Positions 6,019-22,776 of a DNA stretch of 44,074 bases are shown here, in pieces. The translations under genes and the position numbers were made by a program. Each line of letters starts with the position of its first letter. Within the stretch, counting starts at the first letter, position 1. The notes beneath the pieces were generated by a model. The model was given only the letters and a program-made list of their open reading frames with translations. It made no database searches and was not told where the DNA came from. The stretch is from assembly GCA_026196105.1 (NCBI GenBank), contig JAPHRK010000035.1:66341-110414 (forward strand). Reading direction: 5' to 3'. This DNA comes from Rhodospirillales bacterium. GTDB taxonomy: Bacteria > Pseudomonadota > Alphaproteobacteria > Rhodospirillales > JAPHRK01.

Positions 6019-6168
6019 GGTGGACCTGTAGGCTCGCGAGTAGTAATTTGTGGACGTTGTTCCTTGAGCGTACGCAAGCCGTCGAGACTCTTAGGTTTTT
6101 ATGTTTGCATGTATTCAGGAAATGACATGAGATTAGCGATCTATTTTAATTTTGTGGGGGCATACTTT

Positions 6169-7860: not shown

Positions 7861-7904
7861 ACTAATTCATTTTGTAATTTTGACTAATTCGTTTTGTAAT
7901 TTTT
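7861..7904. repeat. 22-base tandem repeat before the NapC-fusion gene
   Basis: ACTAATTCATTTTGTAATTTT (7861-7881) is repeated as ACTAATTCGTTTTGTAATTTT from 7883, with one base changed. The AT-rich pair sits between the nirS terminator and the ribosome binding site of the next gene and may contain its promoter or an upstream activating element. Confidence 0.6.
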
Positions 7905-7935
7905 GTTCGTCGTAATCTTCCGGGGGGAAGTAAAA

Positions 7936-10626
7936 ATGGCCAATGGCGGTTTAATATCTCGTATCCTTTCATGGCGTCCCTTAGGGGCCTCATTAACGGC
8001 TGCAACCGTATTTTTTGTTGTCGGTATTCTCTTTTGGGGTGCCTTCAACACAGTAATGGAAGCAACCAACACCCTACCTTTCTGTATTTCTTGTCACGAA
8101 ATGAAAGACAACGTGTACGAAGAATATAAAGAAACATCTCACTACCAGAACCGCAGTGGTGTTCGTGCTAGCTGCTCTGACTGTCACGTTCCTCGTCCTT
8201 GGGTTTACAAAATTATTCGTAAAATTGAGGCTTCCAGAGAGGTTTATCATAAAGTCCTCGGGACCATTAATACCCCCGAAAAATTTGAAGCTCACCGCTA
8301 TCAGCTTGCTAAGAACGTCTGGAAAGCAATGAAGGAAACGGATTCCAGAGAGTGCCGCAATTGTCACTCTTGGGATTCCATGAAACAAGACAAGCAGATT
8401 AAACGCGCCTGGAAAAATCACCAATTGGCTCAAGCCGATGGCATGACCTGTATCGATTGTCACAAAGGCCTCGCCCACAGGGACGTGAGTGGATTGATAA
8501 AAGAAGGTGAAGACCCCTATGACGGTAGAGCCGTTGATGATCGCCGCTTGCCTCCCAAACCAACCAAGGCAGAACTAAAAGCTGCTGCGGACGCAAAAAT
8601 GGCAGAAGAAGCTAAAAAAGCGGAAGAAGCTAAAAAAGCTGCCGCAGCAGCAGCTCCTAAAGCCGCTGCGGCACCCACATCAGCAGGTAGTGGAGGTGCC
8701 GAAGGTGTCGCATGGGACGGTGTTACAGGTAAGGACATTACCCTCCTCTATCCTGGCATTGCCTCTCTTGAGTGGGTTTACAAGGGTTCTGACCATGGCG
8801 GTGCACGTGCTCTCAAGAAGCTGGGAGATCGTTGCATTGAGTGTCACGAAGGTGAACAGGATAAGATGGGCGCTAAAATTGTCTCTGGTGAAAAAGCCGA
8901 GCCAACCCCAATTCCTGGCAAACGCGGACACATTAAAGTTAATGTAAAAGCTGCCAACGATAGTGCTAATCTTTACATGCGCTTTGAATGGGATGATGTA
9001 GGCCATACCCCTGCTCCATTCGTTGATGGCGGTAAAATGGATCCTGCTAACCAAATGAAACTTGCTGTGATGTTTGACCATGGCAAAGTTGAAAAAGCTG
9101 ACCATGCCGGTTGCTGGGCAACCTGTCACCATGACTCACGCTATATGCCTGATCATCCTAAAGACCAAGATGCGGTTAAAGCTGGTGTCACCAAATACTT
9201 GCTTGAAAGCAAAACTGAGTGGGAAGTCAACGGCAACGATGGCAAACCGCGCGGTGCTTGGGATAAAGCTCGTCCACAAGCTGAAATCGATGGTTACATG
9301 AAAGACGGTGTCTTCCTTGAACTTATTCGCTACAAAAGTGGTGATAAAAAAACCGAATCTGGACACGTGCTTGAAAAGCGTGTCATGGAAGGTGGAGCAA
9401 AATCTACTATCACCGCAAAATTGGTTGATGGTAAATGGGTTGCTTTCTTAACCCGTCCGCTCAAAGCCTCTGACGGTTTTGTTTCTTTCGAAAAAGACAC
9501 GCTCTACACCATGGGTTTTGCTATTCATGATGACTTCACTGATGCTCGTTTCCACCATGTATCTTTGGAATACAAGCTTGGTATTGATAATGCTGAAGCC
9601 GAAGTGAATGCAGCAACTGTTGCGGCACCTGCTGGTGGTTCTGCCGCGGCACCTACTGCTGCAGCAGCCCCTGCTAAAGCTGCAGCGACTTCAAGTGGCG
9701 GTGCCGTTGACTGGAGCAAAGCAACAGCCAAAGACATCACCTTCCTCTATCCTGGTCAGGCTTCCCTTGAGTGGGTTTACAAAGGCTCCGACCATGGTGG
9801 TGCTCGCGCCATCAAGAAACTGGGTGACCGTTGCATCGAATGTCACGAAGGTGAAGAAGATAAAATGGGCGCCAAGATTGTCTCCGGTGAAAAAGCCGAG
9901 CCAACACCAATCCCTGGCAAGCGGGGTCACATCAAAGTAAGCGTCAAAGCCGCTAACGATGGTGAAAACCTCTATATGCAGTTCCAGTGGCCTAATAAAT
10001 CCCACTCCCCCGTACCTTTCGTTGACGGCGGCAAAATGGACCCTGCGAACCAAATGAAGTTCGCTATGATGATTGATGACGGTAAAGTTGAAAAAGGTGA
10101 CAGTGCTGGTTGCTGGGCAACTTGTCACCATGATTCACGTTATATGCCTGACCATCCTAAAGACCAAGATGAGGTAAAAGCTGGTGTCACAAAATACCTG
10201 CTTGAAGCCAAAACTGAATGGGAAGTCAACGGCAACGATGGCAAACCTCGTGGTGCATGGGATAAAGCCAAACCACAAGGCGACATTGATAGCCTTAAAA
10301 GCGGTGGTCAATTTATGGACTTGACCCGTTTCTTAAGCGGCAATGGTGGTAAATCTGAATCAGGTATCGTTCTCGACAAACGAGACATGACTGGTGGCCA
10401 AGCCATAGAATATACTGGAGCCCTTGCAGATGGTGTGTGGACTGTAAACATGAAACGGCCTTTAAAAGCCGCTAATGGTTTGGTTTCACTTGAACCAGGT
10501 AAACTCTACACCGTTGGCTTTGCCATTCATGATGACTTTACAACAGCTCGCTTCCATCACGTTTCTTTGGAATACAGGCTAGGCATCGATAATGCTGATG
10601 CTGAAATCAACGCAATCAAAAATTAA
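7936..10626 (+). CDS. NapC/NirT tetraheme cytochrome fused to two ethylbenzene-dehydrogenase-like heme domains
   Basis: This 896-residue protein has an N-terminal membrane anchor (about residues 18-42) and four CXXCH sites (C50, C80, C140, C172) typical of the NapC/NirT quinol dehydrogenases. An Ala/Lys-rich linker (about 205-260) leads to two near-identical domains, about 267-558 and 598-890, joined by an Ala/Pro linker. Each has one CXXCH (C300; C633) and one CX3CH (C393-W-A-T-C397-H; C726-W-A-T-C730-H). The domain resembles the heme-binding subunit family of ethylbenzene/DMSO dehydrogenases (EB_dh). I infer it carries electrons from quinol to periplasmic NirS or the cupredoxin. ATG 7936 follows GGGGGGAAG. 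It lies between nirS and a signalling gene. Confidence 0.9.
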   Translation: MANGGLISRILSWRPLGASLTAATVFFVVGILFWGAFNTVMEATNTLPFCISCHEMKDNVYEEYKETSHYQNRSGVRASCSDCHVPRPWVYKIIRKIEASREVYHKVLGTINTPEKFEAHRYQLAKNVWKAMKETDSRECRNCHSWDSMKQDKQIKRAWKNHQLAQADGMTCIDCHKGLAHRDVSGLIKEGEDPYDGRAVDDRRLPPKPTKAELKAAADAKMAEEAKKAEEAKKAAAAAAPKAAAAPTSAGSGGAEGVAWDGVTGKDITLLYPGIASLEWVYKGSDHGGARALKKLGDRCIECHEGEQDKMGAKIVSGEKAEPTPIPGKRGHIKVNVKAANDSANLYMRFEWDDVGHTPAPFVDGGKMDPANQMKLAVMFDHGKVEKADHAGCWATCHHDSRYMPDHPKDQDAVKAGVTKYLLESKTEWEVNGNDGKPRGAWDKARPQAEIDGYMKDGVFLELIRYKSGDKKTESGHVLEKRVMEGGAKSTITAKLVDGKWVAFLTRPLKASDGFVSFEKDTLYTMGFAIHDDFTDARFHHVSLEYKLGIDNAEAEVNAATVAAPAGGSAAAPTAAAAPAKAAATSSGGAVDWSKATAKDITFLYPGQASLEWVYKGSDHGGARAIKKLGDRCIECHEGEEDKMGAKIVSGEKAEPTPIPGKRGHIKVSVKAANDGENLYMQFQWPNKSHSPVPFVDGGKMDPANQMKFAMMIDDGKVEKGDSAGCWATCHHDSRYMPDHPKDQDEVKAGVTKYLLEAKTEWEVNGNDGKPRGAWDKAKPQGDIDSLKSGGQFMDLTRFLSGNGGKSESGIVLDKRDMTGGQAIEYTGALADGVWTVNMKRPLKAANGLVSLEPGKLYTVGFAIHDDFTTARFHHVSLEYRLGIDNADAEINAIKN

Positions 10627-10679: not shown

Positions 10680-13232
10680 GTGAAAGAAAGAATTTTGAGT
10701 AACCAAGAACTATTTACGGATGAATGGCCTGTAATATCGAAACAATCTTTGGTCGATCAACCCATAGCAAAGATTGTAAATCGGGAACTTTTGTTTTGTA
10801 GTCCTGAAGAACGCCTCTCCGACGCCGCACACAGAATGCAAGAAAGCGGCTGTAGCTCAATTATTGTTCAAGAGAATAATATCCCTATCGGCATTTGGAC
10901 CGAGCGAGATGCCTTAGCGGTTGATTGCTCAAATCTAATTGCTTTGGACCAACCAATCCGCTCGTACATGCGCTCCCCGGTTAAGACGATAAATCATAAC
11001 GTCAGCGTTGGTGCCAGTGCGGTTCGTTTTAAAGAAGAAGGTGTTCGCCATCTTCTCGTTGTAGATGATAACTCACAAACCATTGGAATCATTACTCAGA
11101 CTGACGTCATCCTCAAACATGGCGTTGAATACTATCTCGGTGTTAAAGACGTTCGATCAGCTTTGACCGTATCTGCACCAGTTGTTTCAGCAAGTGCTTT
11201 ACTGCAAGAAGTTGTTGCCGCTATTAGAGCCTCCAAACAATCGGCAGTTTGTGTTGAGTATGCGGAAGGTGATTACGGAATTGTCACCGACAAAGACATT
11301 ACCCACCTTATTGCAGAAAAAAAAGTTGCAAAAACAGCTCGAGAAATTGGTACACGTCATTTAGTTACGGTCTCGACCAACGCTTCTCTCTTAGAAGCTC
11401 GGAACAAGCTTGCTCATCATGGCTTTAGGCATTTAGGGGTCGTTGATCCAAGCCGTAAGCTTGTGGGGCTTCTCAGTTATTCTGGCATCTTGAACAGCCT
11501 TCAATACGAGTACCTCAAACAGATTGATATTGTTCTTGGTGAGCGGGACAAAGCGCTTAAGCAGTTTCAATCTAACCTTAGGTTAGCCCATAAAATTATT
11601 GAATACTCTCTTGATGGGATCATCTTGCTCAATGCTGATGGTATCATCGAATACGTCAACCCAACCTTCACCAATGTCACTGGTTACTCAGCAGATGAAG
11701 CCATCGGGAAAACGCCTAACCTCTTAAAATCAGGTCGCCACGACCAAGAATATTATACACAAATGTGGCAAACATTATCTGAAACAGGTTATTGGCAAGG
11801 AGAGATTTGGAATAGACGGAAAAATGGATCTATCTATCCAGAATGGCTTACCATCACTGCAATTAGGGATGATGAGGGGCAAATTCAGCAATACGCAGGA
11901 ATTTTTGCTGATATATCCGACCGTAAGGAAAAAGAAAAAGCGATTCGTAAGATGGCCTTTTTTGATGACCTAACGGGCCTCCCGAACAGGCGGCTTTTCA
12001 GAGATCGTTTGATGGTCGCGCTCGCCAGAGCAAAGCGGCACAATGAATATCTCGCTATTATGTTTCTAGACCTGGATCACTTCAAAAAGATCAACGATAC
12101 CCTAGGACATGTTGTAGGCGATACCTTGCTTGTTGAGGCCTCACAGCGCATCAAAGAATGCCTGCGGGAAGAAGATACCGTTGCACGCCTTGGAGGGGAT
12201 GAGTTTATTCTTCTTTTCCCAGACATTGAAAACATTGATGAAGTCATCAAGATTGCTGAACGGGTAAACCATTCATTCAACCAACCATACACGATTGATG
12301 GCCATGAACTTTATGTAACCAGCAGCATTGGGATCAGCATATCCCCTGATGATGGAAACGATGCCGACACCCTTATCAAAAATGCTGATGCGGCGATGTA
12401 TCGCTCTAAAGATGAAGGACGAAACAAATTTAATCTGTTTAGCCCTATCTTCACAGCTCATGGGAAAAGACATTTACAAGTAGAGAATGCCCTTCGGCAA
12501 GCCCTCAAAAATGATGAACTCACCATGGTCTTCCAGCCAAAAGTTAAGGCTTGGAATGGCGAGATTACTGGTGTTGAAGCTCTCGCCCGTTGGGAAAATA
12601 AAGAACTCGGGTTTATTTCGCCTGTTGAGTTTATTCCATTGGCTGAAAACATTGGTTTAATTAGTAAAATTGGCGTTTGGGCTCTTCGCTCTGCATGTAA
12701 AATCATGAAAGAGTGGCGAGAAGCCGGGCACCCGTTAATAAGTGTGGCTGTCAATATTTCAGCAATACAAGCGGTCGAGTCTACGTTTCCTCAATCCGTA
12801 GCAGCCATTCTATCTGAATTTGAAATTCCTGCGAAATACCTTGAAATTGAAATCACAGAAAGTACCTTCCTCAAAGATTTTGATATCGTCCGAAACAATC
12901 TTGAAGCTCTTAAAGGACTCGGTGCGAGCATTTCTATGGATGACTTTGGCACAGGATTCTCTAGCCTCAGTTATCTCAATAGAATTCCTTTGGACTACTT
13001 AAAGATTGACCGCAGTTTCGTCAGCAAAATGTTCATGGAAGAAGAAAGCCTCGAATTGGTGGCAACAATCATTTCTATGGCCAAAAACCTTGGCTTAAAA
13101 ACCATTGCTGAAGGTGTTGAAACTCAAGAGCAAGCTGACCTCCTTAATGACAAAGGATGCCACCTTCTCCAAGGTTATCTTTATTCAAAACCAATTTCTG
13201 CAAAAGAAATTGCTAAAAAATATTGGAAGTAG
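10680..13232 (+). CDS. CBS-PAS-GGDEF-EAL cyclic-di-GMP signalling protein
   Basis: The 850-residue cytoplasmic protein has two CBS pairs (about residues 28-150 and 155-280), a PAS domain (about 300-415), a GGDEF domain with intact G505-G-D-E-F and an inhibitory site R-E-E-D five residues before it, and an EAL domain starting at E633-A-L with D-D-F-G-T-G further on. It could both make and break cyclic-di-GMP; both catalytic motifs look intact. CBS pairs usually bind adenosine nucleotides and PAS may bind heme, flavin or a metabolite, so it may link energy or redox state to behaviour. The start is uncertain: GTG 10680 is used, and TTG 10695 is an alternative with a similar weak ribosome site. 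It lies after the NapC fusion and just before the cupredoxin. Confidence 0.92.
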   Translation: MKERILSNQELFTDEWPVISKQSLVDQPIAKIVNRELLFCSPEERLSDAAHRMQESGCSSIIVQENNIPIGIWTERDALAVDCSNLIALDQPIRSYMRSPVKTINHNVSVGASAVRFKEEGVRHLLVVDDNSQTIGIITQTDVILKHGVEYYLGVKDVRSALTVSAPVVSASALLQEVVAAIRASKQSAVCVEYAEGDYGIVTDKDITHLIAEKKVAKTAREIGTRHLVTVSTNASLLEARNKLAHHGFRHLGVVDPSRKLVGLLSYSGILNSLQYEYLKQIDIVLGERDKALKQFQSNLRLAHKIIEYSLDGIILLNADGIIEYVNPTFTNVTGYSADEAIGKTPNLLKSGRHDQEYYTQMWQTLSETGYWQGEIWNRRKNGSIYPEWLTITAIRDDEGQIQQYAGIFADISDRKEKEKAIRKMAFFDDLTGLPNRRLFRDRLMVALARAKRHNEYLAIMFLDLDHFKKINDTLGHVVGDTLLVEASQRIKECLREEDTVARLGGDEFILLFPDIENIDEVIKIAERVNHSFNQPYTIDGHELYVTSSIGISISPDDGNDADTLIKNADAAMYRSKDEGRNKFNLFSPIFTAHGKRHLQVENALRQALKNDELTMVFQPKVKAWNGEITGVEALARWENKELGFISPVEFIPLAENIGLISKIGVWALRSACKIMKEWREAGHPLISVAVNISAIQAVESTFPQSVAAILSEFEIPAKYLEIEITESTFLKDFDIVRNNLEALKGLGASISMDDFGTGFSSLSYLNRIPLDYLKIDRSFVSKMFMEEESLELVATIISMAKNLGLKTIAEGVETQEQADLLNDKGCHLLQGYLYSKPISAKEIAKKYWK

Positions 13233-13285
13233 TTTCATCTGAACTATATCATCTTTTAGGAACCTCATTTGTGGTAGGAAAAAAG

Positions 13286-13708
13286 ATGCTCAAAAAAAAC
13301 CTTCTTGCATTAGCAACAATTACAATTATGGCTTTACCTGCAACTGTTCAGGCAGGTGGAAAAGATGCTGAAATAGCCATGATCTGTGAAAAAGCTGCAG
13401 CTCGATATCAAGAACTGTTTGGCAAAGAAAAACTTCCCGACAACACGGTAGTCGTGACAACCTACAAATTTAATTTCTGTCCTAAAACTATCACCGTCAA
13501 GCCAGGAACAACCGTTCGCTGGGTAAATGTTGACAAGCGAACAAGCCATAGTGTTTGGCCCAAAGAAGCCAATATGCCAGAATCAGAGAGGTTCTTCCCT
13601 GACGAATCCTTTGAAATTAAGTTTGATGATGAAGGAACTTATCCATACCTCTGTGGCCCACACTGGGAACGAGATGGAATGATTGGCAATGTAAAGGTAA
13701 CGAAGTAA
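13286..13708 (+). CDS. Periplasmic type 1 copper protein (cupredoxin)
   Basis: The 140-residue protein has a signal peptide ending V-Q-A (residue 23) and a cupredoxin fold with a full type 1 copper set: His88 (T-S-H-S), Cys123, His126 (C-G-P-H) and Met132 (G-M-I-G). Two further cysteines, 34 and 65, may form a disulfide. Small blue copper proteins donate electrons to nitrite or nitric oxide reductases; the position inside the denitrification block suggests that role, but the partner is inferred. ATG 13286 follows TAGGA and the frame is open 63 bases upstream into the previous gene. It converges on the regulator gene, whose stop starts at the next base. Confidence 0.9.
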   Translation: MLKKNLLALATITIMALPATVQAGGKDAEIAMICEKAAARYQELFGKEKLPDNTVVVTTYKFNFCPKTITVKPGTTVRWVNVDKRTSHSVWPKEANMPESERFFPDESFEIKFDDEGTYPYLCGPHWERDGMIGNVKVTK

Positions 13709-14413
13709 TTACTCTTCGCCGCAGAATATCCTGAGAGCGTTGATATCATTAATATCGACGTTACGGCGCTCGCATATAACTCCGATGTCTCTAAGGCGTG
13801 CCATAGCCCGTGACAGGCTTTCAGGTTTCATACCTACATGGCTGGCAATAAGGGTTTTATCAAAAGGAAGCTTCACTTGTGCCCTGCCCTCTAACTTCTC
13901 AGTCAGCGACAAAAGAAACGATCCTAGCCTTTGTCCTGGGGATTTTAGTTTAAGGTCGGAAATTTGTCTTAACAAACGACGATGGCGACGAGACATAGCT
14001 GCCATAATTTTAAATGCGAGGACTGTATTTTGAGAGAGTTCTCTAAAGAAGGGTTCCGCACTAACTTGAACTAAGACTGAGCTTTCTACAACTTCAGCAT
14101 TCACAGGGAAACGACCAGAGGCAAACATAGCCGCCTCCGCAAAGGTGTGGACAGGTTCAACAATTTCCACCACCCCTTCATCACCGCTTTCCATCGCCGT
14201 AAAGAGCTTAACTTTACCCTCAAGAACCACATAAAACCGGTCAGCAGCATCGCCTTGACTAAAAAGAAGGGTGTGGCGAGGCATTGTGCGAGCAGATGCA
14301 CCCGCCATAAGTCGTTCAACGTCCTCCTCAGGCAGCTCTACAAAGGTTGGCGATTTACATACCAAGGCCAAATCATCATCGCTTAATAATCGAGATGCAC
14401 TCTTCGAACTCAT
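13709..14413 (-). CDS. CRP/FNR-family regulator, DNR/NNR-like (first copy)
   Basis: The 234-residue protein has an N-terminal cyclic-nucleotide-binding-like beta roll, a long dimer helix and a C-terminal helix-turn-helix. The recognition helix reads P-E-S-L-S-R-A, with Glu, Ser and Arg in the same spacing as FNR residues that read TTGA half-sites. It lacks an FNR-type N-terminal cysteine cluster, which places it with the DNR/NNR type that senses NO through heme. ATG 14413 follows AGGGG; a TTG at 14422 is less likely. It sits 22 bases downstream of a paralogous regulator and converges with the cupredoxin gene without spacer. Probable role: NO-dependent activation of the nir and NO-reductase promoters in this window. 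Confidence 0.88.
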   Translation of the reverse strand: MSSKSASRLLSDDDLALVCKSPTFVELPEEDVERLMAGASARTMPRHTLLFSQGDAADRFYVVLEGKVKLFTAMESGDEGVVEIVEPVHTFAEAAMFASGRFPVNAEVVESSVLVQVSAEPFFRELSQNTVLAFKIMAAMSRRHRRLLRQISDLKLKSPGQRLGSFLLSLTEKLEGRAQVKLPFDKTLIASHVGMKPESLSRAMARLRDIGVICERRNVDINDINALRIFCGEE

Positions 14414-14435
14414 ATTTTTCAAACCCCTAAATCAC

Positions 14436-15155
14436 TTAAGCTGGTTGCGACAAATCTGAATCTTGGCAGAAATCCCTTAAGGTTTCCACATCTTCCAGAA
14501 TTAGAGAATCGTGATCCCCCACCACACCAACTTCGCGTAATTTTCCAAGAGCCCGCGACAGGCTTTCCGGTTTCATTCCTAAACGGTTCGCTAGCAGTTT
14601 TTTATCATAAGGAAGTTTTACTTGAGCTTTCCCAATCTCAACATCTGTGAGACCTAAAAGGAAACTTCCTAAGCGCTGCCCAGTTGTTTTCAGTTTCAAT
14701 TCGCTCACCTGGCGAACAAGGGAACGAAGGTGGAAAGACATACTCGCCATCATATCCTTAATCAAAGGGAAGTTACCTTCCAAATGTTCAAGGAATGGCT
14801 CAGCAGGCATAACCACAAGTTTGGCACCCTCAACGACTTTTGCCCCGTTTTGGAAAGCCCCTTTTTCAAAAATTGGGGCAATGCCAAAATATTCACCCGG
14901 ACCAATAATATCTATAATGCTTTCTTTATGTTTCACTGACTCAACAAAAAGCTCAACACGACCACTCAGGATTAGATAGAAACGGTCAGCGTCTTCATCT
15001 TGTCGAAACAAAACTTGATCGTCGGAAACTTCTTCAACACTTGCACCTCGAAACAAGGCCGCAATTTGCTCCTTCGGTAACCTTTTAAAAAGGGCTGTCC
15101 CTTTAAGAGCATGAAGAGCGATATCTGGTAGGTCTTGGGAATTTATTTCCGGCAC
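14436..15155 (-). CDS. CRP/FNR-family regulator, DNR/NNR-like (second copy)
   Basis: The 239-residue protein is a paralogue of the next gene: same beta roll, dimer helix (Q-V-S-E-L-K-L-K) and recognition helix P-E-S-L-S-R-A. It also lacks an FNR cysteine cluster. There is no ATG near the N-terminus. GTG 15155, with a GAG 7-10 bases before it, gives an N-terminus similar in length to the paralogue; TTG at 15170 or 15191 are alternatives. A perfect TTGAC-N4-GTCAA box at 15227-15240 lies upstream and may mediate autoregulation. Two adjacent copies suggest either different signals or heterodimers. Confidence 0.87.
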   Translation of the reverse strand: MPEINSQDLPDIALHALKGTALFKRLPKEQIAALFRGASVEEVSDDQVLFRQDEDADRFYLILSGRVELFVESVKHKESIIDIIGPGEYFGIAPIFEKGAFQNGAKVVEGAKLVVMPAEPFLEHLEGNFPLIKDMMASMSFHLRSLVRQVSELKLKTTGQRLGSFLLGLTDVEIGKAQVKLPYDKKLLANRLGMKPESLSRALGKLREVGVVGDHDSLILEDVETLRDFCQDSDLSQPA

Positions 15156-15192
15156 GAATTTCTCAGCCAATGTTATAAGACAAAAGAGCAAG

Positions 15193-15226: not shown

Positions 15227-15240
15227 TTGACAGAAGTCAA
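15227..15240. promoter_or_regulatory. FNR/NNR-type box before the regulator pair
   Basis: TTGAC-AGAA-GTCAA is a perfect palindrome. A -10-like TATAAC at 15220-15225 (minus strand) would put the box about 20 bases before the start, a repressing position. Another TATAAC on the minus strand at about 15172-15177 would place it near -67. The sign of control cannot be read from the sequence. Confidence 0.75.
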
Positions 15241-15271: not shown

Positions 15272-15874
15272 TTAATAAACTTTGAAATTTTGATTTTGTT
15301 CATCAAATGTGACTACAAAATTCCTGCCACTGACCAATTCTATTTTTTCTTTATATTCAAAGTCATAACCTTCATCCCTCACACTGTCGCGCATCTGAAT
15401 ACTCACCTCATGAACACCAGTAGGTACTACGAGTTTTTGATAAAAGATAGAAGCACCATCTTTAGAAAGCCCTTTGGGTCGCGAGACATGACGATAGACT
15501 TCTTCATCATTAACAGTCATGACTAAAAGTACGGGGGTTCTCTCGCGCTCACACGACATGGCTGCCCTCATATTTGGGGGCAGTTTCTTCAGTTCTGCTT
15601 TCGTGCGTTTCTTGCATTCAGTAATTCTTTTACCGCTATGGCTAATACTTACCTTAATCATTGCCTGGTTTTCTGCCAGATAATGGTAAGCTAAAGGATT
15701 AGGAGATGTTTCTGATGTTAAGAAATGCCCTGCCGCAGAGAAAAAACCGAGAATAAACATTGTAAGAATAGCAAACACAGATAACCCGATAATTCGCCGA
15801 ATTAAGACGGCAAGTGTTACCTTTTCCTCGATTCCTTTAGGAAAATACTTATCGGGGGTAATTTCTGATCTCAT
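15272..15874 (-). CDS. Membrane-anchored protein of unknown function in the NO-reductase cluster
   Basis: The 200-residue protein has one membrane helix at about residues 28-50 and a soluble C-terminal part rich in beta strands with two cysteines (C87, C107), probably in the periplasm. I do not recognise a family. It starts 10 bases after the stop of the cytochrome b/iron-sulfur fusion gene, so the two are co-transcribed and likely work together. The beta-rich extracytoplasmic part recalls domains that assist assembly of membrane redox complexes, but that is only an analogy. Confidence 0.75.
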   Translation of the reverse strand: MRSEITPDKYFPKGIEEKVTLAVLIRRIIGLSVFAILTMFILGFFSAAGHFLTSETSPNPLAYHYLAENQAMIKVSISHSGKRITECKKRTKAELKKLPPNMRAAMSCERERTPVLLVMTVNDEEVYRHVSRPKGLSKDGASIFYQKLVVPTGVHEVSIQMRDSVRDEGYDFEYKEKIELVSGRNFVVTFDEQNQNFKVY

Positions 15875-15884
15875 TTATTTTCCC

Positions 15885-17459
15885 CTATTCACCAGCAACA
15901 GATTCAAGTTCAACACGAGAATCATGAGTTAGTTTTTTTTTGGAATTGGTAACATCTTGGACAAATTCACCAAGTTCTCGCCTAATTTTACCCATTTCAG
16001 TTGGTCGAGCCCAACTAACACGAATGGCATCACGCGGTATTTTTGGACGCAGATAAGGGTCGCGGTATCCAGTCAAGCGCTCTTCAGTCCAATGGACACC
16101 CAGACGGTGATAACAATCCCCAGGACGGCAAGCAGACAAGACAAGACCATCAAATCCAGCCCTGGATAAAGCGTATTCAATAAACGCAGGAGGAACCTGA
16201 GCAATACACGACATCTGAACTGTCCCTACCACATCACTCTCAAGCTCTTTTAAAGCACCACCGAACTCACACCCAAAGACAACGATTTTAACATCCCCAG
16301 TAAGGCGCTTAGCTTCAGCATTAAGTCTTGCACGAACAGCTGTCAGCGGCACATCAGGAAGATCGATACCAGTGATCAGTTCTTCGCCACGGCGATATGG
16401 GCTTGAAGAAGGGCATGCACCAGAACAGGTACCACATGCCGTACAGAAGCTCTCTTTAACAATAGCCTCAAATTCATAACTTGGATGCCCGTCCGTACGA
16501 GGTTGCATCGTCACTGCCCCGAAGGGGCAATCTTCAAAACAACGACCACAACCATTGCAGTTATCTAAATTGACGACAGCAGGAGTCGGTGCCCGATGAG
16601 GAATGATAAATGGCATTATAGATAGGACAACGGAGAAAATAATCGCCGTGGCCCACATAGCCCCTGCCCCCATCCAATCCAAGGCCGGATAAACAAATAG
16701 ATACCACCAGTCTAAATTAAGGACGACAGGAACTTTGCTCAGGTCAGCAGGAGGATGGCTCACTGCAGGAAAGACCAAAGATAAAACCATCAACAAGCCA
16801 AAAGCACCCCACGCAATAGCTTTGGGAGGGTTAATTTCAGCCCGCGCCATACGCAACAAGTGGATCCACATAACAAATAGCAAGGCGAGCGGCACAAAAA
16901 TGTGAATGAAGATCAACAGTGTAAAGAAGCGATCGCCCAGACTACCTTCACGCAGGAAGTTATTGGCAATTGGTTCGCTGAAAATTGAGAGCCAATCAAG
17001 CCATTCAAATGAAGCAATAGCCATGTATTGGGCGAGTTCGTCCCAGACCAGCCAATAACCCGTTATACCAGAGGTCAACAAAAGCCAGATAATGGGAACA
17101 CCTGTGAACCAAGCGAACCAACGCACACCATGATAACGATCCAAAGCGAATTCACGGAGCATATGGATCAGCATGGCAAAAACCATAGCGTCAGAAGCAT
17201 AACGGTGCAGGCTACGTGCAATACCCCCCAACCACCATTGATCATGAGTTAACCACTCAATGGAGTCGTAAACAACATTTACCCCAGTATCAAAGACCAA
17301 AAAGAGGTAAATACCGGTAATGGAAACAATCCAATAGAAAAACCAGCAGAGTGCCCCAAGATGGTAAACCGGGTTAAACCGCTGCCCAAAAATTGCATCA
17401 AGTAGTCCTTCAAAATACAAGAATGGGACCCTGATTCCGGTCTTTAATGCGTCTAACAA
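15885..17459 (-). CDS. Cytochrome b / two [4Fe-4S] / MvhD-like iron-sulfur fusion protein
   Basis: The 524-residue protein begins with a cytochrome b-type membrane part. The four heme ligands are visible as His85/His99 and His186/His200, each pair 14 apart as in cytochrome bc1. After two further helices come two bacterial-ferredoxin clusters (C301, C304, C307, C311 and C339, C342, C345, C349) and a domain like the MvhD/FlpD iron-sulfur subunit with C397, C418, C444 and C449. It should move electrons between the quinone pool and a cytoplasmic iron-sulfur or flavin partner. No Rieske or cytochrome c1 gene is nearby. The start is TTG 17459 with AAAGG 8 bases upstream; no ATG is available. It follows the SCO gene on the same strand. 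Confidence 0.9.
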   Translation of the reverse strand: MLDALKTGIRVPFLYFEGLLDAIFGQRFNPVYHLGALCWFFYWIVSITGIYLFLVFDTGVNVVYDSIEWLTHDQWWLGGIARSLHRYASDAMVFAMLIHMLREFALDRYHGVRWFAWFTGVPIIWLLLTSGITGYWLVWDELAQYMAIASFEWLDWLSIFSEPIANNFLREGSLGDRFFTLLIFIHIFVPLALLFVMWIHLLRMARAEINPPKAIAWGAFGLLMVLSLVFPAVSHPPADLSKVPVVLNLDWWYLFVYPALDWMGAGAMWATAIIFSVVLSIMPFIIPHRAPTPAVVNLDNCNGCGRCFEDCPFGAVTMQPRTDGHPSYEFEAIVKESFCTACGTCSGACPSSSPYRRGEELITGIDLPDVPLTAVRARLNAEAKRLTGDVKIVVFGCEFGGALKELESDVVGTVQMSCIAQVPPAFIEYALSRAGFDGLVLSACRPGDCYHRLGVHWTEERLTGYRDPYLRPKIPRDAIRVSWARPTEMGKIRRELGEFVQDVTNSKKKLTHDSRVELESVAGE

Positions 17460-17578: not shown

Positions 17579-18466
17579 TCAAACTAGTTTTTCTTTTCGT
17601 TCTTTTCGTTCTCTTTGGGTTCTACGTATAGTTCTGACCATTACCCAGGCAGGAATTATCATCACAGTTATTCCTGCAAATAGGTTGATGAAATAGGCAT
17701 AATCAAAATAATAGCGGTCAGTATCTGGGTCATAAACTGTGCAATAGAATTTTATTTTTTTGAACAGGCCTTCAGGTGTAAAAACTGATTTCTCAGTGTG
17801 GTAAATAATATCTTTGAGGGGTTCAATCAGATGTGGCGTATCAAAGGTTTCGCCATATACCTGCTTGTACACTTTGCCTTCTTTATTGATCACTGTAACC
17901 TGGGCTAAATGATCAAAACCATCAGGAGTTCGGTAAAAAAAGAATCCTAAATCATCTGCTAGCTGAGAAACATTGAGAATATCACCACTCAAGAATTTCC
18001 AGTTCTTACCACCAGCATCTTGTCTCTCAGCAAACTCACCCATGCTTTCAGGCGTATCAAAGCTGGTATCAAAACCGATAGTCAGAATATTGAATTCATT
18101 TTCTCCGAATGTCTCATTAGCAACATCCAAAGAGTGCAGCAAGCTGTCTGTTATAGTAACACAAACTGAGACACAGCTTGTATAAACAAAGCTAACTACA
18201 AGAGGCTTACCTCTGAATTCTTCTAAAGAAATCGGAGTTCCATTTTGATCTGTAAATTTAGCATCTCTGATCACGTGTTTAAGGGCGCTTTGGCTATATT
18301 TAAAAGCGGCCTTTTGATCCATATCTCTAGCATCAGGCGGCCAAGCATCTATGACTGCAGCGGGCGCAGCAAAAGCTGTACTCGCCATCATAACCGTTAA
18401 GGTAAAAACAGCAGCAATAAAGCTAGATAGGGCTTTTGCAATATTTGTTATCATCATGCTCAGCAT
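17579..18466 (-). CDS. SCO1/SenC-family copper chaperone with C-terminal membrane helix
   Basis: The roughly 295-residue protein has a signal sequence (to about residue 34), a thioredoxin-like domain with the SCO copper motif C98-x3-C102 and distal His186 (F-D-H-L), and a C-terminal membrane helix (about 255-280) followed by a basic tail. SCO proteins load the CuA centre of subunit II; a CuA subunit is encoded just upstream. Classic SCO proteins are anchored at the N-terminus, so the C-terminal helix is unusual. Start choices are ATG 18466, ATG 18457, or TTG 18478, which sits 3-4 bases after an AAAAGGAA sequence. That ribosome-site-like sequence is buried in a long inverted repeat (18481-18527). 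Confidence 0.9.
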   Translation of the reverse strand: MLSMMITNIAKALSSFIAAVFTLTVMMASTAFAAPAAVIDAWPPDARDMDQKAAFKYSQSALKHVIRDAKFTDQNGTPISLEEFRGKPLVVSFVYTSCVSVCVTITDSLLHSLDVANETFGENEFNILTIGFDTSFDTPESMGEFAERQDAGGKNWKFLSGDILNVSQLADDLGFFFYRTPDGFDHLAQVTVINKEGKVYKQVYGETFDTPHLIEPLKDIIYHTEKSVFTPEGLFKKIKFYCTVYDPDTDRYYFDYAYFINLFAGITVMIIPAWVMVRTIRRTQRERKERKEKLV

Positions 18467-18480
18467 CTTAAGTTTCAAAT

Positions 18481-18638: not shown

Positions 18639-20321
18639 TTAGCTGAGGATCCAGACTTCTGACAGGTACTTCCAGTTCACGAAGTAGTAGAGAACGAAAG
18701 TTGTCAGGAAGATCAAAGCCAATACAAAGGTTCCTGGAACCGCAAGGCCAGCGCCATGACCATGACCGGTCAAAGCTTCTGCTGCTGGTGCTGCTGGAGC
18801 TTCTGCAGGAGCTGCTTTTTTCTTACCAATAATGGTAAGGACCATTTGGATACAGAAGAGACCACCGCCGATGGCTGCAATGATAGCGAACACGCCATTC
18901 AAAGCCATCATCAAGTGAGCTGCTGCTGGGTAGTCATAGGTCAACGTAGCATCTGCGAAGGTCATATCCCAGTGACGACGGGAAACACCCAAGGTACCAG
19001 CACCCATTTGGAACAGAGCGATACCAGTAACACCGATACCGAACAGGTAAGGCTGAATTTTAGCCAGACCAGGTGCCCAAAGTTCACGCTGCCATAAGGT
19101 TGGAACCAACCAATAAGACAAAGCCATGAATGCCAAGGTTGTACCGCCAGCTGTTGTAGCGTGGAAGTGACCAGGGACGTAGATGGTGTTGTGCATGATC
19201 AGGTTCAACTGCTCGGTCCCCATAACAACGCCAGTGATACCACCGAGGAAGCCAAAGATAACGATAGACAGGAAGGTGCCTGAGAATGCTGGGTTGCCCC
19301 AAGGAGCTTTCCTCAACCACTCAAATAGCCCTTTGGTGTAGCCCTTGCGGCGCTGCGCCAATTCCATAGCACCAGGAACGGTCAAACCATGCATCATGGA
19401 ACCGAATACGGCGAGATAGAAAGCGTAAGAGGTGTTGAAGATCTTGAATTCTGAAGTCAGGCCTGGTTCCACGAGAAGGTGGTGAGCAGACGCAAGCTGC
19501 AGGAACAAGATGTACATGAGGAATGCTGTACGGCAAACTTTCTCAGAAATTGGCTTCGCACCGAAGACAATAGCTGCAACAGCGTACCAGCAAGCAATCT
19601 GAGCTGAAACGTTGATCTGTTGAGAAGAGTGACCGAGGCCCCACCAGATAACCTTATAAAGAAGGGTATCTATGTAAGGTATAAGCCCTAAGGACCATGC
19701 CAATGTCGGGATCAGGATTACAGCGCCGGAAACGATAGTGTAAACAGCGATAATCGCAGCAACTATAGCACCGAAAGTAACCAGAGGAACTGATCCTTCA
19801 TAGGTTTTCTCTTTTTTCGCAATGACCAAAGTGCCGAAGAAGACAAAGCAAACGATCAGTGCACCAACGGCAAAGAGGATCAGCCCCAAGTAGAACAAGG
19901 GAGAAGCCTTCATTGGCACGTAAGAGGTGAACATAACGCTAGATTCACCCATGAGAACAGCAACGTTACCCATTGCAGCTCCACCAAGCATCAGCCAATA
20001 AGCAAGCCAACCGAATTTCGGTGTGGCCAAACGGCATTGCAAGAGAACACTTGAGCAGAAGTAAAGCAGGGCCATCTCAAAGAAGATCAGCCATACCAAA
20101 AGGATGTCCACACCATGTGCAGTCAGAGCCAGATAGAAGAGTTCAGCGTCCAGTAAGTGTACTGTCGGCCAACGTGTCAGAGCTACCAGGAGGCCAAAGA
20201 AACCACCAATGAGCAAAAACACTACGGCTGACACGGCATTCCATTTGATCAGCTTATCAGCATTAAGATCAATTTTGAATCCGGTGTCAGGACATGTGCG
20301 ATATTCGTAAGTCGCAGCCAT
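18639..20321 (-). CDS. Heme-copper oxidoreductase subunit I lacking the active-site Tyr; probable CuA-type NO reductase (eNOR-like)
   Basis: The 560-residue membrane protein has about 14 helices. Ligands typical of the superfamily are present: His69 for the low-spin heme, His231, His280 and His281 for CuB, His385 for the active-site heme and His387 for the low-spin heme. Oxygen reductases have H-P-E-V-Y at the first CuB ligand, with Tyr cross-linked to His. Here it reads H231-S-S-Q-Q235, so the Tyr is replaced by Gln. Loss of that Tyr marks NO reductases. The neighbour is a CuA subunit II, not NorC. The gene lies in a nir block without norB, so I infer reduction of NO to N2O by a NOR related to the eNOR group. 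An Ala-rich loop near residue 505 precedes the last helix. ATG 20321 lies 12 bases after the subunit II stop. Confidence 0.85.
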   Translation of the reverse strand: MAATYEYRTCPDTGFKIDLNADKLIKWNAVSAVVFLLIGGFFGLLVALTRWPTVHLLDAELFYLALTAHGVDILLVWLIFFEMALLYFCSSVLLQCRLATPKFGWLAYWLMLGGAAMGNVAVLMGESSVMFTSYVPMKASPLFYLGLILFAVGALIVCFVFFGTLVIAKKEKTYEGSVPLVTFGAIVAAIIAVYTIVSGAVILIPTLAWSLGLIPYIDTLLYKVIWWGLGHSSQQINVSAQIACWYAVAAIVFGAKPISEKVCRTAFLMYILFLQLASAHHLLVEPGLTSEFKIFNTSYAFYLAVFGSMMHGLTVPGAMELAQRRKGYTKGLFEWLRKAPWGNPAFSGTFLSIVIFGFLGGITGVVMGTEQLNLIMHNTIYVPGHFHATTAGGTTLAFMALSYWLVPTLWQRELWAPGLAKIQPYLFGIGVTGIALFQMGAGTLGVSRRHWDMTFADATLTYDYPAAAHLMMALNGVFAIIAAIGGGLFCIQMVLTIIGKKKAAPAEAPAAPAAEALTGHGHGAGLAVPGTFVLALIFLTTFVLYYFVNWKYLSEVWILS

Positions 20322-20333
20322 TGTTAGTGCCCC

Positions 20334-20915
20334 CTATTTCACGTAAATTTTGCCGAGCATGTTGTGGTGCCCGATGCCGCAAAATTCATTACAAACAACG
20401 CCGAATTCACCAGTTTCGGTGGGCGTTACGTTAAAGATCATCTCGTAGCCAGGATGAACCTGGATATTGATGTTCGTAGGCTGAAGAGACCAGCCGTGCA
20501 GCCAATCAAGAGAGGAAAGGTGGAAACGATAGCTTTTGCCTTTTTCAAGCTCAAGAATCGGATACCAGTCCCATAAGCGACCCAGCATATACACGTCACC
20601 GCTGTCAGTAGCCTTAACTACTGGAATACCAGTGTCGCCTTCTTCGCGAATTGTATTCGCAGCAACATAGGCTTCAACTTTTGCTTCATAAGCTTCGCCA
20701 ACGAATCTTTGTGAAGGGTCACTCTCAGCACCTTGGTCTGCAAGCGGAATCTTATAAGCTTCATTAGAAAGGTTTTGCTGACCAACGATATGCCAATAAG
20801 GCATCATGAAGAAGAGAATCATTGCCCAAACAAGGCAAATACCGATCCAGAGAGCTTCAGTTCTCTCTACCGGTTCATTCCACCAGACTTTCTCTGATGG
20901 GGGAAAAATAGCCAT
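20334..20915 (-). CDS. CuA-containing subunit II of heme-copper NO reductase
   Basis: The 193-residue protein has one membrane helix (about residues 22-42) and a periplasmic cupredoxin domain. The CuA site is complete: His in W-L-H-G-W and then C-N-E-F-C-G-I-G-H-H-N-M near the C-terminus, giving two Cys, a His and a Met. Subunit II receives electrons from a soluble cytochrome or cupredoxin and passes them to subunit I. Conventional cNOR uses a heme c subunit (NorC) instead, so this arrangement sets the complex apart. It lies between a 52-residue membrane protein and subunit I. Confidence 0.92.
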   Translation of the reverse strand: MAIFPPSEKVWWNEPVERTEALWIGICLVWAMILFFMMPYWHIVGQQNLSNEAYKIPLADQGAESDPSQRFVGEAYEAKVEAYVAANTIREEGDTGIPVVKATDSGDVYMLGRLWDWYPILELEKGKSYRFHLSSLDWLHGWSLQPTNINIQVHPGYEMIFNVTPTETGEFGVVCNEFCGIGHHNMLGKIYVK

Positions 20916-20933
20916 TGTGCGATCTCCTATCCC

Positions 20934-21092
20934 TTATTGACCAACAGGAATCGACATAACATCCACGATCCCCCAGATGGTGTACAGAACCGATGGAAGA
21001 GCGACGCCAATGAACAGCAGCAAGAACGGGTTGTCTAAAAGCTGTTGCATGAACGGAACAGGTCCATCCTCAGTGTTATTGGGTTCGGTCAT
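20934..21092 (-). CDS. Small single-helix membrane protein, likely accessory subunit
   Basis: The 52-residue product has a short acidic N-terminus and one membrane helix (about residues 24-45). ATG 21092 follows GGAGG, which rules out an upstream TTG at 21116. It is the first gene of the NO-reductase operon, 18 bases before subunit II. Small one-helix subunits are common in heme-copper complexes, so it may be a subunit or an assembly factor. Confidence 0.75.
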   Translation of the reverse strand: MTEPNNTEDGPVPFMQQLLDNPFLLLFIGVALPSVLYTIWGIVDVMSIPVGQ

Positions 21093-21488
21093 AATAGAAC
21101 CTCCCTCAAATCCCAAATAAAAATTCGGTTCGCCCCATATTAGGAAAGAGACTTACCAGCTAAGTGTTAAGCGGAATTAGTTTATTCTGTTGCACGGAAT
21201 TTGCCCCCCCTTGGGCGCAACCGTAAACATCTTCCCAAACAATGCTACCGCCGATTAAATCAATCTTGCATACCATCGTCTTTTTTTCGCCACATTTCCA
21301 CGAAAAAAGACATATTAGATTGCGTGATTTGACACAAAAGACCATTTTGGTCGAAAAAGGACCTTAACCTTCGTCAAGAAATCTCCCTCCTAGACGCAAA
21401 CTTTTGTCTTGTTTTTCACAGAACTGCTCCGAAGAAAGCGATTTATTTTCAATACCTTTGGATAAAATCGCTCTTTAGGTGATTATCT
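21093..21488. other. Intergenic region before the NO-reductase operon (396 bases)
   Basis: The region holds the NNR-type box at 21364-21377, a -10-like TAATAT on the minus strand at 21312-21317, and a short hairpin AGCGATTT/AAATCGCT (21437-21472) that could weakly terminate the upstream gene. A 61-codon minus-strand open frame (21160-21345) has no good ribosome site and looks spurious. No gene is seen. Confidence 0.7.
21364..21377. promoter_or_regulatory. NNR-type box before the NO-reductase operon
   Basis: TTAAC-CTTC-GTCAA is the form known for NNR sites in front of nir and nor genes of Paracoccus. A minus-strand TAATAT at 21312-21317 would start transcription near 21305, placing the box around -65 (class I). 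No good -10 is seen at the class II distance. Confidence 0.75.
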
Positions 21489-21677
21489 TCAACCATTTGC
21501 CCCAAGAAGATACTTACTCCCTTCAAAGACAATAAGGAGCATCCCAAGAAGTAATCCAAAGAAAATGACACTTCGGTAGGGAAAACGCCTGCCAGCCATC
21601 TCTTCGATTCGCTCTAATAAGGCATTCGCGATAACCCAAGCTACGATTCCAGCAGCTGTAAAATATAATAATTCCAT
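21489..21677 (-). CDS. Small two-helix membrane protein of unknown function
   Basis: The 62-residue product has two hydrophobic helices (about residues 5-20 and 37-58) joined by a charged loop E-R-I-E-E-M-A-G-R-R. Similar short proteins are common in alphaproteobacteria, as far as I recall, but no function is known to me. It lies 43 bases after the heme A synthase gene on the same strand, so co-transcription is possible. Confidence 0.65.
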   Translation of the reverse strand: MELLYFTAAGIVAWVIANALLERIEEMAGRRFPYRSVIFFGLLLGMLLIVFEGSKYLLGANG

Positions 21678-21720: not shown

Positions 21721-22776
21721 CTAGTCTTTGGCACAATTCGCTTCATGCGCAACCCAAAGAGACAGGCAAAAAACAACAACAGCCCCCCCTTGGTGGATTA
21801 CCGCAATTGACACAGGCACAACCAGTAACAAGGTGGCTACCCCCAATCCGACTTGAATCCAAATCATGCCAAAAAGCAAATTAATCGCAACTCTTCCACT
21901 TTGATGAACCTCGATTTTCCTAGCTCGCCACCATAAGAATATGACGATTACAAATAATAATTCAGCAAGAATGCGATGATTAAATTGAACCGTCGTTATG
22001 TTCTCAAAAAGGTTGATGTACAGCGGTTCCATTTGACCAAGACCATCTGGTATCAATTGTCCATCCATCAACGGGAAGGTATTGTAAGTAAATCCTGCAT
22101 CAAGTCCTGCTACAAATCCGCCAGAAAGAATGGTCACAAAAGCCCATGCCGCTACAAGAAATGCATGACCCGACAAAGAGCCTACAGAGCCTTTTGCCTG
22201 TTCTGAAGGTCGATGAAGCAGATCAAGCGCTAACCAGATAAGGTAACCAATAATAACTAGGGCTGCTCCTAAATGAGCCGTTAAGCGATATTGGCTAACA
22301 TCCGGGTTATCTACAAGCCCACTCTTAACCATATACCATCCCAAAACGCCTTGAAGTCCCCCAAGAACAAAACCAACAACAAGTTTGAGTTTCAACCCAC
22401 CGTGAACCCAACCCATGGCAAAAAAAGCAACCATAGGGATGAAATATGCAAGACCAATCGTCCTGCCCCATAAACGGTGTAGAAATTCAAACCAAAAAAT
22501 GGATTTGAAACCCTGTAAGTCCATATCAAAATTCTTTTCATGGAATTCAGGGAACTGCTGGTAATTAGAAAACTCTGCCAGCCAATCAGCTTCATTCAGA
22601 GGTGGGAACCACCCAGTAATCGGATGCCAGTTGACCATGGACAGCCCAGATTGGGTTAACCTTGTCACACCACCCAAGACAATCATGGCAAAAACCATGA
22701 CACAGACTAACAATAACCACCTCGCCATGATAATGTTCCGGCGCTGGTTAATATCCTCAACTGAATTTATGGACAT
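21721..22776 (-). CDS. ctaA: Heme A synthase (COX15/CtaA)
   Basis: The 351-residue protein has eight membrane helices in two four-helix halves, each with a pair of heme-ligand histidines (F-L-H-R-L-W-G-R, T-A-H-L-G, F-N-H-R-I, I-H-Q-G-G). It oxidises heme O to heme A for a-type oxidases. Length and motifs match the alphaproteobacterial COX15 type. It lies upstream of the NO-reductase operon, separated by a small gene and a regulated promoter. Whether its heme A serves that reductase or a separate aa3 oxidase elsewhere cannot be told. Confidence 0.95.
   Translation of the reverse strand: MSINSVEDINQRRNIIMARWLLLVCVMVFAMIVLGGVTRLTQSGLSMVNWHPITGWFPPLNEADWLAEFSNYQQFPEFHEKNFDMDLQGFKSIFWFEFLHRLWGRTIGLAYFIPMVAFFAMGWVHGGLKLKLVVGFVLGGLQGVLGWYMVKSGLVDNPDVSQYRLTAHLGAALVIIGYLIWLALDLLHRPSEQAKGSVGSLSGHAFLVAAWAFVTILSGGFVAGLDAGFTYNTFPLMDGQLIPDGLGQMEPLYINLFENITTVQFNHRILAELLFVIVIFLWWRARKIEVHQSGRVAINLLFGMIWIQVGLGVATLLLVVPVSIAVIHQGGAVVVFCLSLWVAHEANCAKD

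Follow-up and report, generated by a model that had tools for sequence, protein, structure and literature searches.

We analysed a 44,074-nt stretch of a Rhodospirillales genome (JAPHRK010000035.1, 66,341–110,414; hereafter the window, whose positions are used for all coordinates) in which three consecutive genes encode a CuA-bearing heme-copper enzyme that we place in the eNOR group of nitric oxide (NO) reductases. The open reading frames (ORFs) lie where a first-pass annotation of the sequence had put them, all three on the minus strand, and the operon is headed, as had been described, by a gene for a 52-residue protein with a single helix (20934–21092, minus strand). This small subunit appears in the ORF list and has a homologue in all 80 related loci (the best 80 of 402 matches, all with Pseudomonadota titles and representing the nearer kin; some genomes may occur twice in our sets under two locus identifiers). 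Its length is counted from an ATG with a GGGAGG stretch directly upstream, and the mechanically called ORF begins at a TTG further upstream still. Residues Q16, D20, Y37 and W40 are found in at least 99% of the 111 small-subunit rows that passed our filter for bit score and coverage, and both the position and the size of the protein are reminiscent of what we understand to be subunit IIa of the ba3 oxidases.

Subunit II (20334–20915, minus strand; 193 aa) is likewise present in 80/80 related loci and consists of one helix, recognised by eye, and a CuA domain. It scores 21.5 bits against COX2, slightly below the cut-off of 22, and H140, C175, E177, C179, H183 and M186, which are the CuA ligands, are each kept in at least 99% of 113 rows, so that the complete CuA site noted earlier is borne out. 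Subunit I (18639–20321, minus strand; 560 aa) matches COX1 (PF00115, E = 1.6e-64), and its closest solved structures are ba3-type cytochrome oxidases (best E 6.9e-46).

Active site and family placement

We aligned subunit I with other heme-copper subunits in a set of 137 rows (heme-copper oxidase [HCO] rows scoring above 100 bits and no shorter than 480 aa, together with 13 outgroups picked by hand). The first-pass annotation had claimed that all of the metal-ligand histidines are retained and that Gln235 replaces the cross-linked Tyr, and this was confirmed: His69, 231, 280, 281, 385 and 387 align with the ligands of other oxidases, and in the H-S-S-Q-Q motif at 231–235 the Gln235 aligns with their Tyr, four residues after the first His (H+4). 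The Gln set includes 113 rows (80 related loci, 29 loci from the Pseudomonadota set, the Defluviimonas, Thermus [L148] and Thermomicrobium plasmids, and the window), and Gln-Gln occurs at 234–235 in 80/80 related loci, 29/29 Pseudomonadota-set loci and the three named plasmids. The resemblance is not due to chance, because the COX1 match is accompanied by six histidines and a Gln-Gln pair that recur in the 80 related loci. All six ligands are present in 113/113 rows except for H387, the low-spin heme ligand position in other HCOs, which is Lys in the Thermus row L148 and also in L226 (both are Thermus thermophilus plasmid eNORs which read G-H-F-K-A-T here).

The residue at H+4 is Tyr in all eight aligned Tyr-type B oxidases (from plasmids and two genomes) and Glu in 7/7 rows labelled cNOR or qNOR (labels given by size and score). 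Further positions fixed in the Gln rows and different in the Tyr rows include Q234, Q235, N237 (Trp in the latter), N296, Y299 and H311 (Thr in the latter), with Y299 found in 113/113 and Y302 in 112/113 eNOR rows and neither fixed in the Tyr-type B oxidases. Residues S308, H311 and Y246 of subunit I and E20 of subunit II are conserved and stand, we presume, where the ba3 enzymes have their K channel.

A maximum-likelihood tree was produced from 62 hand-chosen rows (57 of the 137 plus five more named plasmids, leaving out L195 and most of the eNOR rows). It placed the 35 Gln rows, including those from Thermus and Thermomicrobium, in one clade with a support of 100/99, whose closest neighbours are the Tyr-type B oxidases and a small H-N-x-H-Y group (98/96, perhaps an artefact of long branches). 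The cNOR and qNOR rows are distant from it, and the deeper order is unsure. The tree held no sequence labelled sNOR or bNOR, and none from Rhodothermus. We note that three COX1-like proteins with the H-N-x-H-Y motif (L192, L194 and L155, the last from an Azospirillum plasmid) have a Tyr in place of the first His of the His-His pair.

By these features the window enzyme is a member of the already known eNOR family, which was reportedly treated by Hemp and Gennis in 2008 and by Murali et al. in PNAS in 2024; they have in common the Gln at the Tyr position, a CuA subunit II, a B-family subunit I and a nearby SCO gene. Residue H+4 and the tree thus support the earlier reading as a CuA-type NO reductase, as the Gln clade is separate from both cNOR/qNOR and the Tyr-type B oxidases. 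An active-site table in PMC8756737 lists Gln for eNOR, Asn for sNOR and CuANOR, and Glu for cNOR and qNOR, and the same excerpt reports eNOR from alpha-, beta-, gamma- and deltaproteobacteria. A passage of PMC6431628 describes in Magnetospirilli a ba3-a1 type with SCO in the operon and no catalytic Tyr, which is equated with eNOR in part of PMC8879329, where NO reductase activity is stated as reported, and an excerpt of PMC11388526 counts eNOR among the biochemically characterised NO reductases. It had been claimed earlier that CuA-bearing NO reductases, the eNOR group among them, have been proposed only recently; the mention of eNOR stands, but going by these excerpts (PMC8879329, PMC11388526) it is more than a proposal, since activity is reported.

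Other assignments are set apart by the same position. We had first considered sNOR for its similar norSY-senC gene order (sNOR of ammonia oxidisers and bNOR/CuANOR are also CuA-bearing B-family NO reductases, and sNOR also has a SenC/SCO gene), and this was ruled out by the Gln found here as against the Asn tabulated for sNOR and bNOR in the excerpt of PMC8756737. The cNOR and qNOR would share the substrate and the place in denitrification, but were ruled out by Gln rather than Glu at H+4 and by their distance in the tree; these enzymes also have no CuA. The ba3-type O2 reductase of Thermus, with the closest solved structures and the same ligands, has a Tyr at H+4 instead, and identity as an O2 reductase was ruled out by the lack of this Tyr and by the tree.

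The assembly (99.03% complete) has six COX1-family genes, which by motif and tree are A1-like, A2-like and cbb3-like oxidases, the degenerate L006, the window eNOR and L005. None of the six is a cNOR or qNOR, and the suggestion that the enzyme stands in place of norCB therefore holds, with the caveat that L005 (G000:C43:31034-32326) is also a CuA-type HCO subunit I. This protein has H-N-L-M-E with Glu at H+4, has no His at the 387 place and groups apart from cNOR/qNOR in the tree; together with L193 it fits none of the cNOR/qNOR, eNOR or normal oxidase patterns. L006 (G000:C21:21060-22229) is one of three COX1-like proteins of 459–477 aa, has no NCBIfam match and no His-His pair (by eye), and its gene follows that of the A2-like oxidase; L245:9491-10867 and L244:3127-4557 stand in eNOR gene sets near the fusion gene described below.

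Downstream genes and the surrounding window

The operon extends past the three genes of the first-pass annotation, with a SCO gene, a fusion gene and orf200 following downstream on the same strand. The SCO1/SenC-like copper chaperone (17579–18478, minus strand; PF02630, 3.9e-15) has conserved C102, C106 and H190 as well as an additional conserved C246. The fusion (15885–17459, minus strand) joins a cytochrome b, two [4Fe-4S] ferredoxin motifs and an MvhD/FlpD domain, as recognised by profile and structure matches, and orf200 (15272–15874, minus strand) encodes one helix and a beta domain of an unnamed family with conserved C87, C108, R110, R112 and D139. The row filter left 123 rows for the fusion, 118 for orf200 and 107 for SCO.

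This gene order is widely retained amongst the related loci, where the small gene and subunit II (80/80) are accompanied on the same strand by SCO in 78/80, the fusion in 76/80 and orf200 in 71/80, and in the loci without SCO, fusion or orf200 the contig stops before the expected gene or inside the fusion (in the two without SCO, less than 400 bases from subunit I). The fusion follows SCO closely, with a median gap of 14 bases over 76 loci, and the spacing between subunit I and SCO exceeds 700 bases in 40/78. A plasmid of Defluviimonas sp. SAOS-178_SWC has the order small gene, subunit II, subunit I, cyoE, SCO, fusion, orf200 and hemerythrin, with a heme O synthase lying between subunit I and SCO. 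On the Thermus and Thermomicrobium plasmids eNOR is accompanied by a small gene and subunit II, and a protein search for the fusion in all plasmids (E up to 1e-10; chromosomes were outside its scope) gave matches only in Defluviimonas. The Pseudomonadota operons, which continue with the fusion and orf200, differ in this from those of the Thermus and Thermomicrobium eNOR plasmids.

All 53 of the aligned fusion members match the cytochrome b, 4Fe-4S and FlpD/MvhD families. The fusion profile gives matches to cytochrome b6 (1.9e-27), to ferredoxin domains and to MvhD (2.5e-12), and those to mitochondrial cytochromes b extend as far as residue 286–301. The four heme histidines (H85, H99, H186 and H200), eight ferredoxin Cys and four MvhD Cys are found in 99–100% of the 123 rows, and an invariant D250-W251 pair lies at the place of the complex III Qo motif PEWY (placed by eye). 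The AlphaFold2 model is confident (predicted local distance difference test [pLDDT] 88.5, predicted template-modelling score [pTM] 0.86), and Foldseek aligned it with complex III cytochrome b over ~290 columns (E ~1e-7; template-modelling [TM] score 0.42 by query and 0.56 by target length). The fusion thus has a di-heme cytochrome b with a Qo region, like the Rieske/cytochrome b complexes (bc1/b6f), and a C-terminus that aligns with the MvhD of HdrA2/MvhD systems; the helix count suggests that the iron-sulfur part is cytoplasmic. It is the only FlpD of its own genome, and in G136, G201, G227, G278 and G366 it occurs as two neighbouring paralogues. No description of such a fusion beside eNOR was found among the titles and abstract beginnings of the literature matches listed, a scope which does not include the main eNOR study, and we make no claim of absence from print.

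The beta domain of orf200 is modelled confidently (pLDDT 90.6) and is probably extracytoplasmic, with C87 and C108 invariant in 57 rows. Searches of Pfam and NCBIfam gave no convincing family (matches by one to three members, with E of 0.02 or worse), there was no PADLOC match and no sequence match in the Protein Data Bank (PDB) below E 0.9, and a fold search returned weak matches only, from which we draw nothing (the best was to the HGSNAT group, TM ~0.33).

Upstream of the operon lie a small membrane protein of 62 aa, orf62 (21489–21677, minus strand; tblastn match in 35/80 loci by hand count), and a CtaA-like heme A synthase (21721–22776, minus strand; 1.1e-93, under the curated cut-off). 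Look-alikes of orf62, recognised by eye, adjoin the fusion or nirS in L235, L237 and L241. On the other side of the operon there are two CRP/FNR-family regulators (14436–15191, minus strand, with FtrB the best NCBIfam match though under its cut-off, and 13709–14422, minus strand, by family match) and a cupredoxin of the plastocyanin/azurin family, also by family match, which is a possible electron donor (13223–13708, plus strand). A large CBS-PAS-GGDEF-EAL signalling protein (10680–13232) separates these genes from the nir set, which includes a cytochrome cd1 nitrite reductase, NirS, the likely source of NO (6064–7779, plus strand; PF02239, 6.2e-116, with a cytochrome c domain). Beside nirS is a 907-aa protein (7903–10626) which combines a NapC/NirT tetraheme domain with two ethylbenzene-dehydrogenase-type heme domains, and the window also has genes for a tetrapyrrole methylase, a radical-SAM protein and a second cytochrome-d1-fold protein, nirF-like in its position. 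Two further d1-fold genes of the same genome (G000:C56:46930-48111 and G000:C74:65013-66152) are a second nirS-like gene elsewhere and a gene directly to the left of the window.

A TTG-N8-CAA box, which we take to be of the FNR/NNR type, precedes the small-subunit gene by no more than 400 bp in 41 of the 77 loci with enough upstream sequence, compared to 6.3 expected from mononucleotide shuffles, mostly as TTGA(C/T)-N4-(A/G)TCAA at about -75 to -150 (by eye). Over the whole window the simple box is not enriched (29 vs 22.9 expected), and TTGAT-N4-ATCAA with up to two mismatches, counted on both strands, occurs 54 times vs 34.5 expected, with 0/100 shuffles as high. One such match, with two mismatches, lies upstream of the operon's small gene at 21479–21492, and TTGACAGAAGTCAA is found at 15227–15240, upstream of the start of the regulator gene at 14436–15191.

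Distribution of the fusion, orf200 and eNOR

We looked for the three genes in 398 Pseudomonadota genomes, counting eNOR at E <1e-190 plus a fragment in G227 and tallying the sets by hand, and found eNOR in 31, the fusion in 34 and orf200 in 33. The fusion is present in 30/31 genomes with eNOR and in 4/367 without (G121, G137, G145 and G278, three of which are 69–82% complete and one 96% complete with 6% contamination), and orf200 is present in 33/34 fusion genomes and in no other of the 398 at E up to 1e-5. The cytochrome-d1 family also includes NirF and NirN, so that every strong d1-fold gene (best E no worse than 1e-50) was counted here as 'nirS'. By class, the fusion was found in 26/27 genomes with d1 and eNOR, 3/27 with d1 and no eNOR, 4/4 with eNOR and no strong d1 gene (these four are 74–88% complete) and 1/340 with neither. 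Many of the 31 eNOR genomes are from one family (f48), and the Fisher p-value for the set of 398 overstates independence.

A cleaner test is provided by 31 relatives from the same order, which have 31 different family codes and in which length and score, rather than a tree, served to separate eNOR from other COX1 genes. Thirteen of these have eNOR; the fusion is found in every one of the thirteen and also in G408, an assembly of 82% completeness (Fisher p 7e-8). In 11/13 the eNOR piece beside the fusion also matches the window subunit I, and the window's own genome makes a twelfth. The fusion was found in 1/5 relatives with d1 but no eNOR, and in 1/1 with eNOR but no d1.

The link between eNOR and the fusion is not only operonic. 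G045, G034 and G073 carry them on separate contigs (53 to 158 kb in length), with 8 kb or more between each gene and the nearest contig end, and a single contig holds both in G065 and G085, at distances of ~19 and ~14 kb; other genomes that have the two on different contigs may simply be fragmented. In four of the five named genomes (G045, G073, G065 and G085) a strong d1 gene lies at most ~2 kb from the unlinked fusion. The fusion nevertheless tracks eNOR more than nirS, also where the two are unlinked, and after the cytochrome d1 searches a role as the partner of nirS is not favoured.

Proposed roles and significance

The product of the three genes is very probably an eNOR, a CuA-containing heme-copper enzyme of the B family that would reduce two NO to N2O, with the substrate suggested by analogy to the characterised members of the family. 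NO would be supplied by NirS, and electrons would enter through CuA from a periplasmic donor, perhaps a cytochrome c or the cupredoxin, and the reaction may be coupled to proton movement. The fusion and orf200 appear to form one redox unit for eNOR that could move electrons between the quinone pool and a cytoplasmic iron-sulfur acceptor or donor, and we propose tentatively, at a little short of even confidence, that this transfer supports NO reduction. Several directions would fit, including quinol oxidation with output to both sides of the membrane, a cytoplasmic reductant feeding the quinone pool, and copper or CuA assembly.

A more specific form of this proposal, which seems to us decidedly unlikely, makes the fusion and orf200 a partner of eNOR that bifurcates quinol electrons without a Rieske protein. 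The Qo-like site, on the periplasmic side, would oxidise quinol; orf200 or a different periplasmic carrier would hand one electron on to CuA and NO, and the second would run via hemes bL and bH into the iron-sulfur domains in the cytoplasm to yield a low-potential reductant. In anammox bacteria, Rieske/cytochrome b complexes join cytoplasmic iron-sulfur and flavin subunits, and quinol bifurcation towards NAD(P) has been proposed for them (an excerpt of PMC12954380). The analogy is a loose one because those complexes have Rieske proteins and there are none amongst the searched neighbours here, where the fusion is, moreover, one chain for which no flavoprotein partner was found. An HdrA/Mvh-type bifurcating system with an HdrA flavoprotein was rejected, this partner being absent from the profile search of the genome.

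Several observations weigh against these readings of the enzyme and its redox unit. The characterised Rhodothermus marinus subunit I is outside our tree, in which long branches make the deeper joins unsure. L005, as a second CuA-type HCO, could share or own the NO reductase role, and Tyr299 and Tyr302, which the alignment shows as fixed only in eNOR, could represent redox tyrosines that have moved. No TTG-N8-CAA is found in the window over the 400 bp before the small gene, as is also the case for 36/77 loci including the nearest relative, L007. For the redox unit, no Rieske match was found among the scanned window proteins, the only part of the genome covered by that scan, and no HdrA-like protein for MvhD docking was found in the genome, as the 18 matches to the HdrA profile are the fusion and short stretches of ferredoxin or FAD parts. 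Finally, G069 has eNOR without the fusion in an assembly that is 97% complete.

The conserved tyrosines bear on the alternative that the enzyme is a high-affinity B-family O2 reductase with a moved active-site Tyr, for which NO reduction is a side reaction. Such a relocation of the active-site Tyr is known from the cbb3 oxidases, the closest solved structures are those of ba3 O2 reductases, eNOR conserves Y299 and Y302, unlike the Tyr-type B oxidases, and a similar case is argued for the Nitrosomonas sNOR in part of PMC6967387. We consider this very unlikely given the separate clade with its invariant Gln, a genome that already has A1-, A2- and cbb3-like oxidase genes, and the NO reductase activity reported for eNOR in the excerpts of PMC8879329 and PMC11388526.

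Two further alternatives concern the fusion and orf200, which might instead be assembly factors, passing electrons across the membrane so that copper, or the cysteines in SCO and CuA, are reduced as the enzyme matures. The cupric reductase of the cbb3 oxidases, CcoG, is the model for such a function, and the position of the fusion right behind SCO and the conserved Cys pair in orf200 would agree with it, but there is no obvious need in assembly for four invariant heme ligands and a Qo-like D-W pair, and G034, G073, G065 and G085 keep SCO with eNOR and have the fusion elsewhere. By this analogy an assembly role is conceivable, and we regard it as somewhat unlikely. It is far less probable that the function of the fusion lies with NirS or with heme d1 synthesis, and that it accompanies eNOR only because both belong to denitrifiers. 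The d1 genes close to the unlinked fusions would be expected from this, yet the fusion is rare in genomes with d1 and no eNOR and is present in all of the (incomplete) eNOR genomes without d1, and the few informative relatives show the same pattern.

The Gln-type plasmid genes are annotated as 'cbb3-type' or 'b(o/a)3-type', and with eNOR genes annotated as cytochrome oxidases, such genomes therefore seem to have NirS without an NO reductase. Recognising eNOR alters the list of N2O producers. The enzyme itself is of a known kind, and it is the redox unit found with it that merits further study, as this raises the question of what feeds eNOR and whether NO respiration here conserves energy as cNOR cannot. 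If bifurcation were true, NO reduction would power reverse electron flow.

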